From contig JAADGU010000011.1 of NCBI GenBank assembly GCA_013152195.1, positions 1 to 35,991 on the forward strand: a DNA stretch of 35,991 bases. Reading direction: 5' to 3'. Below are positions 1 through 8,694 of the stretch, in pieces (position 1 is the stretch's first letter; each line of letters starts with the position of its first letter). Below the pieces are notes generated by a model, which did no database searches, was not told the DNA's origin, and worked only from the letters and a program-made list of their open reading frames with translations. Both the position numbers and the translations under genes were made by a program. This DNA comes from Nitrospirota bacterium. Lineage in GTDB: Bacteria > Nitrospirota > Thermodesulfovibrionia > Thermodesulfovibrionales > JdFR-85.

Positions 1-1557
1 TCAAGTCGCAGGAAGATCATGATTCTTGGCAGCGGGCCTAACCGTATTGGTCAGGGTATAGAGTTTGACTACTGCTGTGTCCATGCGGTTTTTGCCCTTA
101 AAGAGATGGGTTATGAGACCATAATGGTGAACTGCAATCCAGAGACCGTCAGCACTGATTATGACACATCAGACAGGCTGTATTTTGAGCCCCTCACGCT
201 GGAGGATGTGTTGAGTATAATCGAGGTGGAGAAGCCGGAAGGTGTTATCGTCCAGTTCGGGGGGCAGACCCCTCTGAAATTAGCCGTTCCGCTTGAGAGG
301 GAAGGGGTAAGGATTCTTGGTACCCCTCCGGATGCCATTGACAGGGCAGAAGACAGAAGGAGGTTTAAGGAGCTTCTGCATAAACTTGGTCTGAGGCAGC
401 CCAATAGTGGGACGGCCATGAGTCCTGATGAGGCCGTCAGGGTGGGAAGAGAGATTGGCTACCCGGTAATGGTAAGACCCTCATATGTGCTTGGTGGCAG
501 GGCAATGGAGATTGTCTATGATGAGGCCTCACTGCAGGATTACATGCAGAGGGCGGTGAAGGCTTCGCCTGAACACCCTGTGCTTATTGACAAATATATA
601 ATGGATGCCATAGAGGTGGATGTGGATGCGGTCTCGGATGGGGAAGTTGTTGTTATCGGCGGACTGATGGAGCACATTGAGGAGGCTGGAATTCACTCAG
701 GGGATTCAGCCTGCTCCCTCCCTCCCTTTTCGCTCTCCGAGGAGATAGTCGGGGAGATAAAGAGGCAGGCGAGGGCACTTGCCAGGGAGATCGGGGTTGT
801 GGGACTCATGAATATCCAGTTTGCTGTGAAGGATAGCGACATCTATATCCTTGAGGTAAACCCAAGGGCATCAAGGACTATTCCCTTTGTGAGCAAGGCA
901 ACAGGTGTTCCCCTTGCAAAGATAGCAGCAAAGGTGATGGCCGGCACGAGACTGGAAGAACTCGGTCTGGTCTCTGAGCCGGCGTTGGGACATGTAGCAG
1001 TAAAGGAGGCAGTCTTTCCCTTTGACAGGTTTTCCGGAGTGGATACCATCCTGGGCCCTGAGATGAAGTCTACAGGTGAGGTCATGGGTATTGACAGGGA
1101 TTTCGGCCTTGCCTATGCCAAGGCCGAGGCATCGGCAAACAATCAGATACCGCTTGAGGGTAAGGTCTTTATAAGCGTGAGGGATGAGGATAAACCTGCT
1201 GTCCTGCCAATTGCCACGACATTTATTGAACAGGGTCTTAAGGTTGTAACCACGAGGGGAACCGCTTCTTTTCTGAAAGAGCATGGTCTCAATGCAGGGG
1301 TTGTGAACAAGCTCAAGGAGGGAAGGCCGAATGTTGTTGACCTTATCAAGAACAAGGAGATAAGTTTCATAATAAATACTGTTGAGAGTGCTGCAGCCCG
1401 GAAGGATTCCTTCTACATAAGACAGAGCGCCCTGGAGTACAAGGTTCCCTATACTACGACAATCTCTGGTGCCAGGGCCGTTGCAAGGGCACTTAAGGGG
1501 CTGAAGGAAAAACGCCTGACCATACTATCCATACAGGAGTACCATAGCAAAGGTTAA
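1..1557 (+). CDS. carB: carbamoyl-phosphate synthase large subunit, C-terminal part (5' truncated by window edge)
   Basis: Open frame from base 1 (SSRRKIMILGSGPNRIGQGIEFDYCCVHA); second ATP-grasp and MGS-like C-terminal domain motifs (GGQTPLKLA, VRPSYVLGGRAMEIV, EVNPRASRTIPFVSKATG). Confidence 0.97.
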   Translation, partial: SSRRKIMILGSGPNRIGQGIEFDYCCVHAVFALKEMGYETIMVNCNPETVSTDYDTSDRLYFEPLTLEDVLSIIEVEKPEGVIVQFGGQTPLKLAVPLEREGVRILGTPPDAIDRAEDRRRFKELLHKLGLRQPNSGTAMSPDEAVRVGREIGYPVMVRPSYVLGGRAMEIVYDEASLQDYMQRAVKASPEHPVLIDKYIMDAIEVDVDAVSDGEVVVIGGLMEHIEEAGIHSGDSACSLPPFSLSEEIVGEIKRQARALAREIGVVGLMNIQFAVKDSDIYILEVNPRASRTIPFVSKATGVPLAKIAAKVMAGTRLEELGLVSEPALGHVAVKEAVFPFDRFSGVDTILGPEMKSTGEVMGIDRDFGLAYAKAEASANNQIPLEGKVFISVRDEDKPAVLPIATTFIEQGLKVVTTRGTASFLKEHGLNAGVVNKLKEGRPNVVDLIKNKEISFIINTVESAAARKDSFYIRQSALEYKVPYTTTISGARAVARALKGLKEKRLTILSIQEYHSKG

Positions 1558-1560
1558 TGC

Positions 1561-2886
1561 ATGGGCAGAGAAGATGTTGATTTTATTATAAAGGGTGAGT
1601 ACGTTCTGACCATGACAGATGGGGGGCCTCTGCTTGGTGGTGCCGTGGCTGTAAGAGATGGTTACATTGTCGATGTTGGATTATCGGATGATTTAGAGGG
1701 CAGATATTTGCCGGATGAAGTCCTTGGTGGCAGTGCAAAGGCAGTAATGCCTGGCCTTGTCAACACCCATACTCATGCTGCCATGGTATTTTTCAGGGGA
1801 ATGGCTGATGACCTTCCTCTCAGGGTCTGGCTTGAGGATAATATATGGCCTGCAGAGGCAAGATGGCTGAGCCCTGATTTTGTCAGGGACGCAACTGAAC
1901 TGGCCTGCCTCGAGATGCTGAAGGCTGGAGTGACACTTTACAATGATATGTATTTTTTTGAGGATGCCTCTGCTGAGGGGATAAAGAGGCTCGGGATAAG
2001 GGCTGTTCTTGGAGCCGGCATCCTGGACTTTCCGACTGCCACTGCTCAGAATACTGCAGAGTATTTTGAGAGGGCCGAGGATTTTATAAAGAGATGGCTT
2101 GGAGATGAACTTATCACCCCCTCTATTGCGCCGCATGCCCCTTATACCTGCAGTCCCGGGACTTACCGGAGGGCCCTTGCTATAGGGGAGGAATATAACA
2201 TTCCTGTCCATACCCACCTCTGTGAAACCCGCTGGGAGGTGGAAGAGATAAAGAGAGTTTATGGCAAGTCCCCAATTGAGCACCTTGACTCCCATGGACT
2301 GCTCAATTCCCGCGTTGTTGCCGCCCATTGTGTCTGGCCCACAGAACGTGAAATAGAGATACTCGCTGAACGTGGTGTAAGTGTAGCACACTGCCTTGAG
2401 AGCAATCTCAAGCTTGCCTCAGGTATTGCCCCTGTGGTAAAGATGCTTGACGCTGGAATAAGGGTTGCCTTTGGCACTGATGGTGCAGCCAGCAATAATG
2501 ACCTTGATGTGATGAGCGAGATGTCAACAGCGGCAAAACTGCACAAGGCAGTCTCTGAAGACCCCACCGCACTCTCTGCACGTACTGCCCTGTTAATGGC
2601 CACCCTCCGGGGTGCTGAAGCCCTTGGCCTTGGAGAGAGGTTAGGGAGTCTTGAAAAGGGTAAACTTGCCGATATAGTGATAGTTGATCTTGATAAACCC
2701 CACCTTGCCCCGATTTATAATATCTATTCCCACCTTGTATATTCAGCAAAGGCCTCTGATGTGGAGAGCGTGATGGTTAATGGCAGATTGGTTATAAATG
2801 GTTATAAATCAATCATTACGCAGGAAGAGGAGATAATTTTTAAGGCCAGGGAGTGGAAAGACAGGATCGTGTCAGGGACGAGCTGA
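1561..2886 (+). CDS. mtaD: amidohydrolase, 5-methylthioadenosine/S-adenosylhomocysteine deaminase-like
   Basis: PGLVNTHTHAAMVFFRGMADDLPLRVWLEDNIWPAE, HTHLCET, HCVW, FGTDGAASNNDLD: metal-dependent deaminase motifs of the MTA/SAH deaminase family. Confidence 0.85.
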   Translation: MGREDVDFIIKGEYVLTMTDGGPLLGGAVAVRDGYIVDVGLSDDLEGRYLPDEVLGGSAKAVMPGLVNTHTHAAMVFFRGMADDLPLRVWLEDNIWPAEARWLSPDFVRDATELACLEMLKAGVTLYNDMYFFEDASAEGIKRLGIRAVLGAGILDFPTATAQNTAEYFERAEDFIKRWLGDELITPSIAPHAPYTCSPGTYRRALAIGEEYNIPVHTHLCETRWEVEEIKRVYGKSPIEHLDSHGLLNSRVVAAHCVWPTEREIEILAERGVSVAHCLESNLKLASGIAPVVKMLDAGIRVAFGTDGAASNNDLDVMSEMSTAAKLHKAVSEDPTALSARTALLMATLRGAEALGLGERLGSLEKGKLADIVIVDLDKPHLAPIYNIYSHLVYSAKASDVESVMVNGRLVINGYKSIITQEEEIIFKAREWKDRIVSGTS

Positions 2887-2951
2887 CAAGCGAGCAAGCT
2901 AACAAGCGAGCAAGAACAGGCTAACAAGCGAGCAAGCGAGCAAGCTAACAA
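2887..2951. repeat. imperfect repeat of (CTAACAAGCGAGCAAG)-like units
   Basis: ACAAGCGAGCAAG recurs several times between the mtaD stop and the heptamer array. Confidence 0.85.
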
Positions 2952-3028
2952 GCCTAAAGCCTAAAGCCTAAAGCCTAAAGCCTAAAGCCTAAAGCCTAAA
3001 GCCTAAAGCCTAAAGCCTAAAGCCTAAA
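2952..3028. repeat. tandem heptamer array (GCCTAAA)x11
   Basis: Direct count of 11 perfect consecutive 7-bp units. Confidence 0.98.
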
Positions 3029-3112
3029 GCCTACAAGCCTACAAGCCTACAAGCCTACAAGCCTACAAGCCTACAAGCCTACAAGCCTACAAGCCTACAA
3101 GCCTACAAGCCT
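3029..3112. repeat. tandem octamer array (GCCTACAA)x10 plus partial GCCT
   Basis: Direct count of 10 perfect consecutive 8-bp units directly abutting the heptamer array. Confidence 0.98.
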
Positions 3113-3126
3113 TTTAATTTTAAAAA

Positions 3127-4374
3127 CTATCTCTTCAGATTTACAACCTCCTGAAGAAGGTCGTCAGTAGTGGTGATTATCCTCGAGTTTGCCTGAAAAC
3201 CCCTCTGTGCAGCTATCATTTTGATGAATTCCTCTGCAAGGTCAACATTGCTCAGCTCAAGAGAGGCACTCAGAACCCTGCCGATTCCGGCTGTGCCCGG
3301 CTCTCCTATTATCGGCTGCCCTGATGAAAAGGATTCGGCGTAGAGGTTTCTGCCTATCTTGGTCAATTCCGTAGGGGCCGTAAACTTTGCAAGAGAAAGA
3401 CGGGCTACCGGTTTTGTCTGTCCATTTGTAAATATACCTGTAATAGTGCCGTCCTCTGATACGCTTAGTGTCTTGAGTGAACCGGCAGTGAACCCGTCCT
3501 GACTGAGAAAGACCGTGGCAGAGGCAGAACCGTACTGGCTCATGTCAGATATGTTAAACCTGACACTCTGTGCGCCGGTTGCGCCCCAGGGAGAAAAATC
3601 AAAAGTGGCTGTGAATTCCGGAGGGTCAGGGGTTGTGAGGCTCCCGGTATCGTCAAACTGGAGGGCCTGCGTCTCGATTATGGAATATGTTGGGGGATCA
3701 GTAGCCGGGTCTGTGACTGTGACGACATTTGTCTCCCACTGGTTTGCGGCTGTCTTTGTAAAATATGTAGTCAGGAGATGGTCGTTGCCCAGGCTGTCAT
3801 AGATCGTCAGGGATGTGGAAAAGTTGGACGTGCCCGACGTGTTTGTGATATCAAAGGGGCCTGTCACTGCATCCCTTGAGTCAAGGTTTACTGAAAACTC
3901 GGCATTGGCTGTTGGCTGTGGAGCACTGTTGAGGGATGCAACCGAGATGTCCCCTACCACACCTGTAGCACTGCCTCCCGAGTCATAGAGATAACCCTGA
4001 ACTCTCAGATTATCGGGTGTTACGAGATAACCATCCTTGTCGAGGGTAAACTGTCCGGCCCTTGTGTAAAAGTTTGAATTATCTTCCTTGACCATGAAGA
4101 ACCCATCGCCGTCAATTGCCATGTCAAGGGCGCTTGCCGTTGTCTCAAAAGAACCCTGGGTGAAGAGGGGGGAAATATCACTCACTATAACTCCTCTTCC
4201 AATTTGTGAGTTGCCCGAAGTTCCTGTGATGGTCTGGCTTAAGACATCACCAAATGCTACCCTGCTTGCCTTGTATCCAACTGTGTTCATGTTTGCAACG
4301 TTGTCACCTATTACCGAGAGAGAAGTCCCGTTTGCATTGAGTCCGCTTATTGCTGAAAAAAGGGCGGTTAACAT
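3127..4374 (-). CDS. flgE: flagellar hook protein FlgE
   Basis: MLTALFSAISGLNANGTSLSVIGDNVANMNTVGYKASRVAFGDVLSQ N-terminus and LSNVDLAEEFIKMIAAQRGFQANSRIITTTDDLLQEVVNLKR C-terminus. Start placed at internal ATG 4374, preceded by AGGAGGTG; the track starts at 4395. Confidence 0.95.
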   Translation of the reverse strand: MLTALFSAISGLNANGTSLSVIGDNVANMNTVGYKASRVAFGDVLSQTITGTSGNSQIGRGVIVSDISPLFTQGSFETTASALDMAIDGDGFFMVKEDNSNFYTRAGQFTLDKDGYLVTPDNLRVQGYLYDSGGSATGVVGDISVASLNSAPQPTANAEFSVNLDSRDAVTGPFDITNTSGTSNFSTSLTIYDSLGNDHLLTTYFTKTAANQWETNVVTVTDPATDPPTYSIIETQALQFDDTGSLTTPDPPEFTATFDFSPWGATGAQSVRFNISDMSQYGSASATVFLSQDGFTAGSLKTLSVSEDGTITGIFTNGQTKPVARLSLAKFTAPTELTKIGRNLYAESFSSGQPIIGEPGTAGIGRVLSASLELSNVDLAEEFIKMIAAQRGFQANSRIITTTDDLLQEVVNLKR

Positions 4375-4376
4375 TT

Positions 4377-4994
4377 TCAGACACCTCCTGCCCATATTTC
4401 TTTAATCTCACCGAGGGAAACCCTCGAGTTGTTGTCAAGCACAAGATATGTAATGCCGTCCTCAAAGCTGATGCCTGTAACCATTGACAGGGTCTCTGTG
4501 GAGACTGGTACCGAATTCCCGTTATTATCGGCGGCAGAGAAATTTACTGTATACAGGCCGTCGGGGAGGGGATTGCCGTTATTGTCTGTCCCATCCCAGA
4601 CGTATTTGCCGCCGCCGGCAGGCTGTTTCCCCAATTCAATGGCTCTGACGACCTCACCAGAGGAGTTATTGATGTTCAGTGTCATCTTTTCCACATTCTG
4701 TGAGACCTCGTAGGAGATCGCTGCAGAACCTTCAAGGTTTACACGATTGCCTTCAACCTTTACCATCTTACTCATAAGGTTTGTGGCAAGTGCGTTATTA
4801 AGGGAGTCCTGGTAGGAGAGGATTCCATCAAGGGTGTCTCCCATACTTATAAGTTGTTCGAGTGAACTGAACTGTGCAAGTTGTGCAGTAAACTCGGTAC
4901 TGTCCATAGGGTTTAGCGGGCTCTGATATCTCAGTTGGGTAGTAAACAGCCTTAAGAAATCGTCTTTTCCCACTGTTCCTGTCACTGGATTCAT
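4377..4994 (-). CDS. flgD: flagellar hook capping/assembly protein FlgD
   Basis: KDDFLRLFTTQLRYQSPLNPMDSTEFTAQLAQFSSLEQL; FlgD N-terminal motif and FLN-like C-terminal region. Confidence 0.93.
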   Translation of the reverse strand: MNPVTGTVGKDDFLRLFTTQLRYQSPLNPMDSTEFTAQLAQFSSLEQLISMGDTLDGILSYQDSLNNALATNLMSKMVKVEGNRVNLEGSAAISYEVSQNVEKMTLNINNSSGEVVRAIELGKQPAGGGKYVWDGTDNNGNPLPDGLYTVNFSAADNNGNSVPVSTETLSMVTGISFEDGITYLVLDNNSRVSLGEIKEIWAGGV

Positions 4995-5017
4995 TTCTTT
5001 CCTCCTTCTGTCATGGA

Positions 5018-6307
5018 CTATACGCGGATACTGACCGTGTATAGTCCCTGGTTAGCATGGTTTGACCTCTGTGGATTTACTTCTATGTCCTTTATATCTT
5101 TCTGGTTATCCCCGGCCTTCATCGATTTTTTATAACCCCTGTTTTTCAGGAAGAGTGAAAAACCTCCGGGAGTTAATCCCGCTTTTGCAAGGCTGTCGAA
5201 AAGCTGGGGCATGTTGTTCTGTAAATCCATCAGGCTCTTTAGCTTCTCAACTCCCAGCTCAGCCCTCACCTCGCCGTCATGTACAGATACCTCGATATCT
5301 ATCTTCCCGAGGCCTTCGGGTTCTATTGTGAGTTCTATGGAGGGGTTTTTGTGGGAAGAAGTTGCCTTGTTTATCTGTGTGCCGGACGTTTCCGGGAGTT
5401 TTTCAGAAAGGATGGTCTCTCCTGTCTTGTGGGTGCTGGAGTTACGGTTTATGTGCTGGGATTCTGTTTCAGGAATATCAATTTTTTGAAAGACGAAAGA
5501 GTTTTCGTTGCTGGGTCTGCTCTCCGGCCGGGAGGATATATCAGCGTCTTTCCTGTTCTGATGAAGTCCGGTTTCAAGCCCGGAGGCATCCTCAGGTGTT
5601 TTGCCGTTTAATATTGGATTGACCGAGGCCGTTTTTCCCGGCGTTGCATTGTTTTTGCCAGGTCCTTCTGTTTTTGGAGGTGTTCTTTGCTGGCCTGTGG
5701 TATTGTTGATAACAGCTGATTCCTCGGGGTTTGCAGGTTTAAGCTTATAGATTGCATTAGAGCCGTTCGTGTTTGGGATCTCCTTCTGTGTCTGAAGCGA
5801 TGCAGTTGTGGTTGCCTTGCCGTTCCCGGTAGTTGTTCCAGCGGAGGTTTCCTGTGCCTTATTCCCGGCCTTGCCTATAATGTTTGCCTGGTTCGGGGTA
5901 TCCGTAACTCCTGTTTTGTCCTGAGAGTTTTCCTGGCTTTGGTTTGTGCCAAGGGCCGCTTTAATAATATCTGACAGTACCGGAGATTGCTTCTCTCCGA
6001 TACCGGTTTGCTGCTGCGCAGCGGTGTCCGGGGTTAGAGCTGTTCCCCCTGATTCAGCACTCTTCCGGCCTCCCAGAGCGTTTTCTGGGTTCGGTGTGGA
6101 GACAGTGGACATAAAAAAGGGCAGAAATACAGAAAATGTTGCTGCTGTATCCACTCCTTTTTCTCCGGAGGAGGGACCTTTTTTTTCAGTGTCCGGCGTG
6201 CCCGGGACTATATTTATCGATGGAAGCAGCATTACAACGTTATGTATAGCAAGTGATATGCCAGGCCCGGGCAGACCTTCCAGCCGGATAAAACCCTGTC
6301 TTTTCAA
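5018..6307 (-). CDS. fliK: flagellar hook-length control protein FliK
   Basis: Low-complexity N-terminal region, conserved C-terminal Flg_hook-like segment (IELTIEPEGLGKIDIEVSVHDGEVRAELGVEKLKSLMDLQNNMPQLFDSLAKAGL), operon position. Confidence 0.85.
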   Translation of the reverse strand: MKRQGFIRLEGLPGPGISLAIHNVVMLLPSINIVPGTPDTEKKGPSSGEKGVDTAATFSVFLPFFMSTVSTPNPENALGGRKSAESGGTALTPDTAAQQQTGIGEKQSPVLSDIIKAALGTNQSQENSQDKTGVTDTPNQANIIGKAGNKAQETSAGTTTGNGKATTTASLQTQKEIPNTNGSNAIYKLKPANPEESAVINNTTGQQRTPPKTEGPGKNNATPGKTASVNPILNGKTPEDASGLETGLHQNRKDADISSRPESRPSNENSFVFQKIDIPETESQHINRNSSTHKTGETILSEKLPETSGTQINKATSSHKNPSIELTIEPEGLGKIDIEVSVHDGEVRAELGVEKLKSLMDLQNNMPQLFDSLAKAGLTPGGFSLFLKNRGYKKSMKAGDNQKDIKDIEVNPQRSNHANQGLYTVSIRV

Positions 6308-6386
6308 TGTCTTCTGGTTTGCGGGTCTGGTGGTATAAGAAGATTTTTCCTTTGGAAGGGAATTTTTTTCTCAGTGAGGTTGTTCT

Positions 6387-6923
6387 TTATCGTTTCTTTT
6401 TCATCTTTACGATCAACTTTTCAAGTCCTGGTATCTCCGTAATCTTTTTAGTCAGCCTTGCAGCCTTTCTCGGGGCCATCATGGAGAGGATATTTGCGGC
6501 CTTTCGCGGTTTCATAAATGCAAGGACCTTTACGGCCGTCTTCTCATCAAGCTCTTCAAGTCTTATTGCCGCCTCTTCAGGCTGCATCTTCTCGTATGTC
6601 TTTACCACATGCTGAATTTTTTCCTCTTTTGTGTTGTCTATCTCTGCAAGTATTTTCTCAACTCTTTCAAGGATATATTCATATTCCTTTATCCTTGCCA
6701 TGATATCTTTTCCCAGCTCCTGAAGTGCCTTCTCCCTTTCCTGCAGCAGCTGCTCCTTCTGGTCAAGTTCAGCCCCCTTGGTTTGAAGATATTGAAGGAG
6801 ATCGTCCTGTGAATAAACAGGAGAGGGCGTTGCAATAATTATAATCAGCAATGATGTCAGGATGAATCCTGGAATAAGCAGTGCCGGGTAAAGCGACTTT
6901 AATATGCCCGGGAGTTTTTTCAT
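6387..6923 (-). CDS. MotE/MgtE_N-like flagellar cluster protein
   Basis: N-terminal TM segment, coiled coil, then MQPEEAAIRLEELDEKTAVKVLAFMKPRKAANILSMMAPRKAARLTKKI (MgtE_N/FliG-like repeats). Lies between fliJ and fliK. Confidence 0.75.
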   Translation of the reverse strand: MKKLPGILKSLYPALLIPGFILTSLLIIIIATPSPVYSQDDLLQYLQTKGAELDQKEQLLQEREKALQELGKDIMARIKEYEYILERVEKILAEIDNTKEEKIQHVVKTYEKMQPEEAAIRLEELDEKTAVKVLAFMKPRKAANILSMMAPRKAARLTKKITEIPGLEKLIVKMKKKR

Positions 6924-7354
6924 CTCTTTATCCTTGTGGTGAATATGAAGTCGAATTCTTTCTGTTCCTTACGGTTGTTTGCCCTTGTCTCATTCAAACA
7001 TAGCTTTCCCCTGAGTTTCTCAACGAGCATCTTCTCCTTATATGCCTCTATCAGCAGTTTCTGCGTTTCATCAAGCTCTGCTATCTTTTTTATGATTGCC
7101 TCCCTCTGCTGGCACATCCTTATGTTCATCTGTGAGAAGTAGGAATGGAAGGTCTTGAGGGAGCCTGGATCTATGACATCATGTATCTGGTGGTCTTTAA
7201 AGGTTTCGAGGTTACCGGAAAGCTCTGTTTCCATGGTTTTCAGGCGTGCCTCTTCCTGATTAATAATGCCCTGCAGACGGTTTATCTCCATCTCGATCTC
7301 TTCCTTGCGCCACTCCTTTAATTTCAGGAGGCTGTTTAATGAATCTGATTTCAT
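6920..7354 (-). CDS. fliJ: flagellar export protein FliJ
   Basis: Small coiled-coil protein directly after fliI; 4-bp overlap with the downstream gene. Confidence 0.78.
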   Translation of the reverse strand: MKSDSLNSLLKLKEWRKEEIEMEINRLQGIINQEEARLKTMETELSGNLETFKDHQIHDVIDPGSLKTFHSYFSQMNIRMCQQREAIIKKIAELDETQKLLIEAYKEKMLVEKLRGKLCLNETRANNRKEQKEFDFIFTTRIKR

Positions 7355-8694
7355 AGTTCTTCTGCCTCAAAGAGGAGATAGAGTCCCTGAAGGCTGTCTC
7401 CCATGTCCCGTCTGTCATTTATGCCCTGCTTCAGGTAGCCACGCAGTCTGTCTATCATCTTTATGGCCCTGTCAACCTTCGGGTTTGTGCCTTCCTTGTA
7501 TGCACCGATGCTTATGAGGTCTTCATATTTCTTGTATGTGGACAGGTTTTCAATAAACATCATTGCAAGCTCTCTGTGTCGTTCGTTAACTATATCCAGC
7601 ATTACCCTGCTGACACTCCTTAATATATCAATTGCAGGGTAGACCCCCTCCATTGCAAGGTCCCTTGACAGGACTATATGACCGTCAAGAACAGACATGG
7701 AAGCGTCTGCCACAGGGTCGGTAAGGTCATCGCCTTCAACGAGTACGGTATAAAGCCCTGTGATGCTTCCGTTGTCTGAAGAGGTTCCGGCCCTTTCAAG
7801 CAGCCTTGGCATCAGGGTAAAGACTGAAGGAGTGTATCCCTTGGTGGTGGGTGGTTCTCCAATGGCAAGACCAACTTCCCTCTGTGCCATTGAGACCCTT
7901 GTCAGCGAGTCCATCATCAAAAGCACATCCATTCCCTGGTCCCTGAAATACTCTGCAATGGCCGTTGTGGTGAAGGCAGCCCTTACCTTTGCCAGGGGAG
8001 GCTCCTGGGCTGTACAGACTATCACCACTGACTTCTTCAGCCCTTCCTCTCCGAGGTCTCTTTCAATAAACTCCCTTACCTCCCTGCTCCTTTCACCGAT
8101 AAGACCTATTACATTCACCGTTGCCTCGGTATATCTTGCAATCATTCCAAGCAACACACTCTTGCCAACGCCGGTTCCAGCCATGATTCCCACCCTCTGC
8201 CCCTTTCCGCAGGTGAGTAATCCATTTATGGCCCTGATACCGAGGTCCATAGGTTCGGATATCCGCTGCCTTTCAAGCGGGTTGATCTGTTCTCCAAAGA
8301 GCGGATACGCATGACCTTCAATCCTTCCTTTTCCATCTATGGGGTTTCCGAGTGCATCTATCACCCTGCCAACGAGGTGCGGCGATACATTTACAGAGAG
8401 CTTCCTGCCCACCGGCAGTACCCTGCTGCCCGACTTTATACCCTGAATATCACCGACGGCCATAAGTAGTGCCTTATCGTCTTTGAAACCAACCACTTCG
8501 GCATCAACTATTGCCCCCCCTTCAGAGTAGACCTTGCAGGCCTCTCCAATGCTTGCCTTCATGCCTGTGGCCTTGAGGATAACACCTGTGATTTCAACCA
8601 CCCTGCCATAGACCCTCATCGGGTCAATACCCTCAAGGCTGTCTATATATCTCTCAATCGTTACTGTTTCCAATATCTTCTCCGAGGTCCTCAA
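7351..8694 (-). CDS. fliI: flagellum-specific ATP synthase FliI
   Basis: Walker A GIMAGTGVGKSVLLG, LIGERSREVREFIE, LLMMDSLTRVSMAQREVGLAIGEPPTTKGYTPSVF. Confidence 0.96.
   Translation of the reverse strand: MRTSEKILETVTIERYIDSLEGIDPMRVYGRVVEITGVILKATGMKASIGEACKVYSEGGAIVDAEVVGFKDDKALLMAVGDIQGIKSGSRVLPVGRKLSVNVSPHLVGRVIDALGNPIDGKGRIEGHAYPLFGEQINPLERQRISEPMDLGIRAINGLLTCGKGQRVGIMAGTGVGKSVLLGMIARYTEATVNVIGLIGERSREVREFIERDLGEEGLKKSVVIVCTAQEPPLAKVRAAFTTTAIAEYFRDQGMDVLLMMDSLTRVSMAQREVGLAIGEPPTTKGYTPSVFTLMPRLLERAGTSSDNGSITGLYTVLVEGDDLTDPVADASMSVLDGHIVLSRDLAMEGVYPAIDILRSVSRVMLDIVNERHRELAMMFIENLSTYKKYEDLISIGAYKEGTNPKVDRAIKMIDRLRGYLKQGINDRRDMGDSLQGLYLLFEAEEL

Follow-up and report, generated by a model that had tools for sequence, protein, structure and literature searches.

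An octamer-heptamer-octamer array between convergent mtaD and flgE genes of a Nitrospirota bacterium and its likeness to the repeats flanking PF05635 genes

Background

Dispersed arrays of 7-mers have been reported from bacteria for decades without agreement on their origin. The short tandemly repeated repetitive (STRR) sequences of heterocystous cyanobacteria are dispersed intergenic tandem heptamers, of which a genome contains many unit types. TAACTGA direct repeats of Beggiatoaceae, Cyanobacteria and Bacteroidetes form dispersed intergenic arrays of up to 43 copies, for which the origin is given as unknown; they lie mostly just upstream of start codons and were read as sites of a translational regulator, and IVP, the protein considered below, is not mentioned (MacGregor 2015, PMC4679880). 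In Geobacter, multi-copy 7- and 8-mers occur as three to five tandem units, often as opposite-strand pairs at variable distance, and have been annotated as regulator-binding sites (PMC2700814). The BrickBuilt minisatellite-MITE of Porphyromonas gingivalis has its tandem array in a mobile intergenic element devoid of transposase, for which filled and empty sites and changes in copy number are known (PMC4596501).

PF05635 (23S rRNA IVP; TIGR02436, 'four helix bundle protein') is a widespread protein family with no known function. The intervening sequences (IVSs) of 23S rRNA that contain an S23p/IVP reading frame resemble the IVP elements described in this work in having a PF05635-type ORF of about 120 codons and inverted ends. 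BrickBuilt differs from these elements by its 23-nt units, its IS5-like terminal inverted repeats and the absence of a PF05635 gene. In the IVS of Coxiella burnetii, two to three tandem GACAGAT heptamers stand just before the S23p start, a feature that varies between strains (PMC4990558). A solved IVP homologue (2GSC) is, according to the title of the cited reference, a pentamer of four-helix bundles. Avd of the diversity-generating retroelements is a four-helix bundle family homologous to IVP, which weakly matches the bAvd and DivGenRetAVD profiles. IVP genes have also been found in cas operons, and for that position were counted among CRISPR-linked genes (PMC3936711, PMC10910872).

Here we describe a short-period array in the window, which is the whole stretch of DNA analysed, the 35,991 nucleotides of contig JAADGU010000011.1 from the Nitrospirota assembly GCA_013152195.1 (genome G000 below). 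It differs from the STRRs in consisting of octamers and heptamers of other sequence, with two periods mixed, in an unrelated bacterium. IVSs are found within 23S rRNA helices, from which RNase III excises them; the window array, in contrast, has no ORF, no inverted arm and no rRNA location.

Results

Layout of the array

The array lies between convergent mtaD and flgE genes and changes from degenerate octamers to heptamers and back to octamers (Table 1). The original prediction that the repeat fills almost the whole space between the two genes is confirmed by the coordinates, with slightly shifted edges: all but about 14 bp of the 240-bp gap is repeat. Both perfect runs were found as described, whereas the beginning, previously taken for imperfect 16-mers, is better described as degenerate octamers of the GCKRRCAR type. 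Read from position 2881, the order of the units is GCTGACAA, GCGAGCAA, GCTAACAA, GCGAGCAAGAACAG, GCTAACAA, GCGAGCAA, GCGAGCAA, GCTAACAA, and the TGA stop codon of mtaD (2884-2886) is contained in the first unit.

Table 1. Positions of the repeat segments and of the two neighbouring genes in the window
Feature	Position	Strand	Remark
mtaD-like amidohydrolase	1561..2886	+	left convergent neighbour; PF01979, E 9e-82
degenerate octamer array (GCTGACAA, GCGAGCAA, GCTAACAA)	2881..2951	+	older-looking part; overlaps mtaD stop codon
array interruption GCAAGAACAGGCTAACAAGC	2910..2929	+	in six congeneric genomes, otherwise only in arms of C46 IVP element
perfect heptamer run (GCCTAAA)11	2952..3028	+	
perfect octamer run (GCCTACAA)10	3029..3108	+	followed by partial GCCT to 3112
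flgE, flagellar hook protein	3127..4395	-	right convergent neighbour; PF07559, PF06429

The TRF scores of the array were 236 and 250, and the highest score obtained with 20 Markov-1 surrogates of the whole window was 55, which excludes a chance origin of the array. The GCCTAAA run occurs once in G000; because this genome is a single, incomplete metagenome assembly (78% complete, 152 contigs), copy numbers of the window array are provisional. The interpretation of the perfect units as a sign of recent expansion was supported by the analysis.

Several conventional identities were considered and rejected. The array is not CRISPR, as had been stated before, because its units are contiguous, with no unique spacers between them. 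Scans of the array revealed no terminator-like site (GC-rich hairpin plus T run) and no inverted repeat, which rules out an intrinsic terminator and leaves a MITE without its inverted repeats. An IVS of 23S rRNA was dismissed because the array lies between protein genes and there was no Rfam match in positions 1-8000 of the window. Nor is it a full IVP element: the PF05635 gene is absent, and it can be at most a solo or descendant array. The mtaD-strand transcript of the array is unstructured (z +4.8), and the flgE-sense strand pairs with itself through G.U-rich AGGCUU pairing (z -4.05). With structure on this one strand only, and with neither a terminator-like site nor an inverted repeat, the suggestion that the array is an RNA element has become weak.

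Octamer arrays in the genome, its order and its phylum

Intergenic octamers of the GCKRRCAR family recur in G000 on contigs C43, C46 (two arrays), C81, C129 and C139 (two loci), giving about eight loci in the incomplete assembly. Several of these arrays are close to contig ends, as would be expected if long arrays break the assembly. The expectation that relatives contain further copies proved right for the octamer family, dispersed in G000 and its relatives; the GCCTAAA run itself is unique in its genome. A supposed preference for convergent 3' ends was too weak to be maintained (6 convergent, 6 tandem and 3 divergent positions among 15 classifiable loci). In the order, octamer arrays were present in 11 of 61 genomes, with the highest load in three congeneric genomes and in one genome from another family. 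PF05635 was found in 9 of the 11 genomes with octamer arrays and in 27 of the other 50, a co-occurrence that by eye is not significant. The exact heptamer was detected in 4 of the 396 genomes of the phylum and adjoins an IVP gene in one of them (G055), which is too rare for statistics; apart from G055, the window heptamer stands beside a PF05635 gene at L199 (GCCTAAA, 4.3 copies).

The core TTTTGTCGTTTTG is found between two inverted octamer arrays in only two places of G000. Two gene-less octamer elements with inverted arms on contig C139 (L027, 90-226, and L028, 1077-1261) have in common the loop core GGACTGAG(C/T)ATTTTGTCGTTTTG, which is absent elsewhere in G000, as if one had been copied from the other. 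On contig C16 of G028 (L097, 5909-6802 and 6802-7467), in-frame arrays add LASLPA-like repeats to the N termini of two predicted proteins, which by eye are an FKBP-type isomerase and an SCO1-like protein; either the starts were mis-called or the arrays were recruited into coding sequence. In another genome of the phylum (G116, contig C281, about 280-310; L323) a GCCTTAA heptamer array separates flgD-like and flgE-like genes. This junction is not that of the window, and the proximity to an flgE-like gene is probably a coincidence.

Array turnover between sibling species

The convergent mtaD-flgE neighbourhood was also found in the siblings G004, G005 and G001, where the gap is 47, 48 and 46 bp, respectively, and in each case contains a hairpin. 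G005 and G001 have no array at this site; the near-equal lengths of the sibling gaps do not prove insertion there. The gap of G004 already consists of octamer-like pieces, folding into a hairpin of -18.8 kcal/mol (z -3.0), and could be the direct seed of the window array. At a second convergent site, octamers with inverted arms are present in G000 and G003, a short hairpin in G002 and nothing in G005, and in G004 a CTATCTGAC 9-mer array runs up to the contig ends (end of C55 and start of C31; L306, L303). Arrays of the latter type are a probable cause of breaks in many metagenome assemblies, where further copies would then go unseen. The proposed interconversion of units through small indels agrees with the exchange of octamers and 9-mers among siblings at the second site and with the different gap contents at the window site. 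Gene-less arrays of the octamer family thus occupy many intergenic sites of the genus and turn over rapidly between sibling species.

IVP loci of the genus

The two octamer arrays of contig C46 flank one PF05635 gene, and PF05635 genes between octamer arrays were also found on C55 of G004 and C16 of G028. Both arms of these octamer elements have the same direction, unlike those of most IVP loci (see below). The window array and the C46 arms have in common the GCKRRCAR unit family and a 20-base interruption, GCAAGAASAGGCTAACARGC, which was found once in the window, three times in the C46 arms and nowhere else in six congeneric genomes with up to two mismatches allowed; the search pattern was derived from the window and C46 sequences and is therefore specific but not blind. 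Six-frame profile searches detected no PF05635 match or remnant (E<1) in the window or beside the solo arrays of the genus, and the C46 IVP protein had no match in phage records.

The two other PF05635 loci of G000 are on C17, with GCCTTCA heptamers, and on C52, with GTTGCGGGTTAAG-type repeats around a broken gene. The flanks of the heptamer-armed C17 locus were found in a sibling, with no clean empty site. The C52 locus (about 200-600; L168) and L169 on C2 of G004 appear to be orthologous IVP elements with GTTGCGGGTTAAG-type inverted arms, with a split gene in G000 and an open one in G004.

Arrays flanking PF05635 genes in bacteria

Eighty PF05635 loci from many phyla were collected with a profile of six closely related IVPs, and the set is for this reason biased towards one subfamily. 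Short arrays lay within 200 bp of the PF05635 gene upstream in 48 of 77 and downstream in 46 of 75 cases, compared with about 6% in bins further out. The best arrays had periods of 7 (51), 8 (27) or 9 (3) and no others; the periods of the window array (8, 7 and 8) fall within this range. Arrays on both sides were found at 30 of 72 PF05635 loci (42%) vs 12 of 378 other ORFs of the same contigs (3.2%; odds ratio 22, Fisher p=1e-17). In an independent set of thirty loci from the window's own order, 17/28 and 20/28 had arrays on the respective sides. About 40% of IVP genes have no detectable array on a given side.

The arms are usually inverted relative to each other: on average 12.3 seven-mers were common to the two arms in inverted orientation, vs 3.5 when arms of different loci were combined (highest mean in 200 reshufflings, 4.6). 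Different loci of one genome have different array units, so that the rule concerns structure rather than one repeat sequence. By simple ORF calling, the IVP gene was co-directional with both neighbours at 50 of 64 and at 21 of 23 loci that could be classified, and antisense to both at a single locus in each count. This bias points to a unit that is either produced or tolerated in the transcriptional sense only, like the intervening sequences of 23S rRNA. In a literature search, mostly outside subscription journals, no paper was found that states a general link between such arrays and IVP genes.

Filled and empty sites in cyanobacterial plasmids

In cyanobacterial plasmids, PF05635 genes are located in compact operons with heptamers on either side, for example (AGGGAAC)n before and (CTGTTCC)n after the gene. 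The inverted heptamers at these loci are AGGGAAC, TCAGAAG, AGGGTGT and AAAAGCT, which we take to be classical STRRs. At one site Trichormus variabilis and Scytonema were filled and Tolypothrix and Nostoc linckia empty, with flanks about 98% identical; at another operon Calothrix was filled and Tolypothrix, Aulosira and N. carneum were empty. Further filled and empty pairs were Picosynechococcus 7003 and 7002, plasmids a and b of Nostoc ATCC 53789, and Aulosira plasmid 2 and Tolypothrix (the filled member is given first). The gaps at the empty sites are 2-13 bp, showing that the arrays arrived together with the gene. Together, the IVP gene and its arrays are a mobile insertion that lies in sense inside operons; the unit encodes no transposase. 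At the cleanest site the empty version contains GTAAT once and the filled one has it at either end of the insert. We read this as a 5-bp target duplication at this one cyanobacterial IVP site; the other sites are too diverged to be read. The pE plasmid of C052 has retained the arms together with what reads like a decayed IVP fragment, and on pNsp_c of ATCC 53789 inverted arrays are present with no annotated IVP gene between them.

Heptamer-armed IVP genes were also observed inside CRISPR operons, between cas6 and cas4 of type I-D (L268, L273) and between cas10 and cmr3 (L272). PCC 7002 has an empty counterpart of the cas10-cmr3 site, of 12 bp, which makes the IVP gene look inserted there rather than part of the CRISPR machinery. 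Neither a reverse transcriptase nor template or variable repeats were seen beside the IVP loci whose gene tables were examined. The relation to Avd, indicated by weak profile matches, and the sense bias may justify a test for an RNA stage or a borrowed enzyme, but no more than a test.

Discussion

Our preferred reading, to which we assign a probability of about 0.5, sees in the window array a solo copy, lacking a gene, of the 7-9-bp repeats that make up the arms of elements encoding the four-helix bundle protein IVP (PF05635). It is based on the flanking statistics of PF05635 genes, the inverted arms, the mobility seen on plasmids and the sense orientation, and, in G000 itself, on the presence of octamer arrays on several contigs, two of them around the C46 PF05635 gene, and on the shared interruption; the occurrence of the window heptamer next to PF05635 genes of other genomes also speaks for it. 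According to this proposal, octamer-arm sequence would have been seeded in the mtaD-flgE gap in one of two ways. Either an element inserted and later lost its gene, recombination between arms of the same direction leaving a solo array as in the formation of solo LTRs, or an arm from elsewhere was copied into the existing hairpin. The array would then have switched its unit from 8 to 7 and again to 8 and grown by replication slippage in the G000 lineage. IVP, which forms pentamers and is related to Avd of retroelements, would be the likeliest candidate for an arm-binding protein. The array is probably without a selected host function.

What counts against a solo IVP array is that no inserted element is present between mtaD and flgE in G004, G005 or G001. 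Further points against it are the same-direction arms of the octamer elements, the non-blind pattern behind the shared interruption, the IVP genes that have no detectable array on one side, and the lack of significance, by eye, in the co-occurrence of octamer arrays with PF05635. Given also that no IVP remnant was found near the window array or the other solo arrays and that the sibling gaps are of equal size, slippage alone stays the main rival. A terminator-like hairpin of GCTGACAAGC-like pieces, as in G004, would have expanded in place into an ordinary satellite with no participation of a mobile element, and the likeness to IVP arms would be a sequence habit common to the genome. The hairpins in the 46-48-bp gaps of all three siblings, the well-folding and already octamer-like gap of G004, the position of the perfect runs and the degenerate units at opposite ends, suggestive of stepwise expansion, and the similar change from hairpin to array at the second convergent site are all compatible with this explanation. 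Slippage leaves unexplained, however, why the octamer family is dispersed in G000 and found around PF05635 genes, and why one specific interruption is common to the window and the C46 arms; we consider it possible, with the odds against it.

The exact coincidence of the array with the position of the sibling hairpins, and the better self-pairing of the flgE-sense transcript compared with shuffled sequences, could point to a selected regulatory array, either a protein-binding array or an RNA element at the 3' ends of mtaD and flgE. A function of this kind is improbable in view of the lack of a terminator-like site, an inverted repeat or an Rfam match, the unstructured mtaD strand, the siblings lacking the array and the rapid change of the unit. 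An assembly artefact or a chimera at the repeat might be suspected in a fragmented metagenome assembly in which several arrays of the family are near contig ends. Yet the contig runs through the array, with intact genes on either side that converge in the order seen in the siblings, and the homogeneous runs, up to 80 bp each, are within an ordinary short read, making such an error very improbable.

Whichever way it was seeded, the window array is a clear case of fast array turnover between sister species. Beyond the genus, the results suggest that many 7-mer arrays and PF05635 genes form one mobile unit, which has no transposase and enters operons in sense orientation, and they advise caution before an IVP gene in a cas operon is taken for part of a CRISPR system. 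More tentatively, and with a little less than an even chance in our estimate, tiny mobile elements composed of PF05635 and 7-9-bp-repeat arms, inserting in sense into operons and having no transposase of their own, would be spread throughout bacteria and leave or seed solo arrays. STRRs, other heptamer families and the 23S rRNA IVSs would then be parts or descendants of such elements and the window array a solo copy; their movement could perhaps proceed through an RNA stage. Two puzzles, the 7-mer arrays and the PF05635 genes, thereby become one testable question, and if the window array is truly a solo copy, several long-known and unexplained repeat families of bacteria would be tied together.
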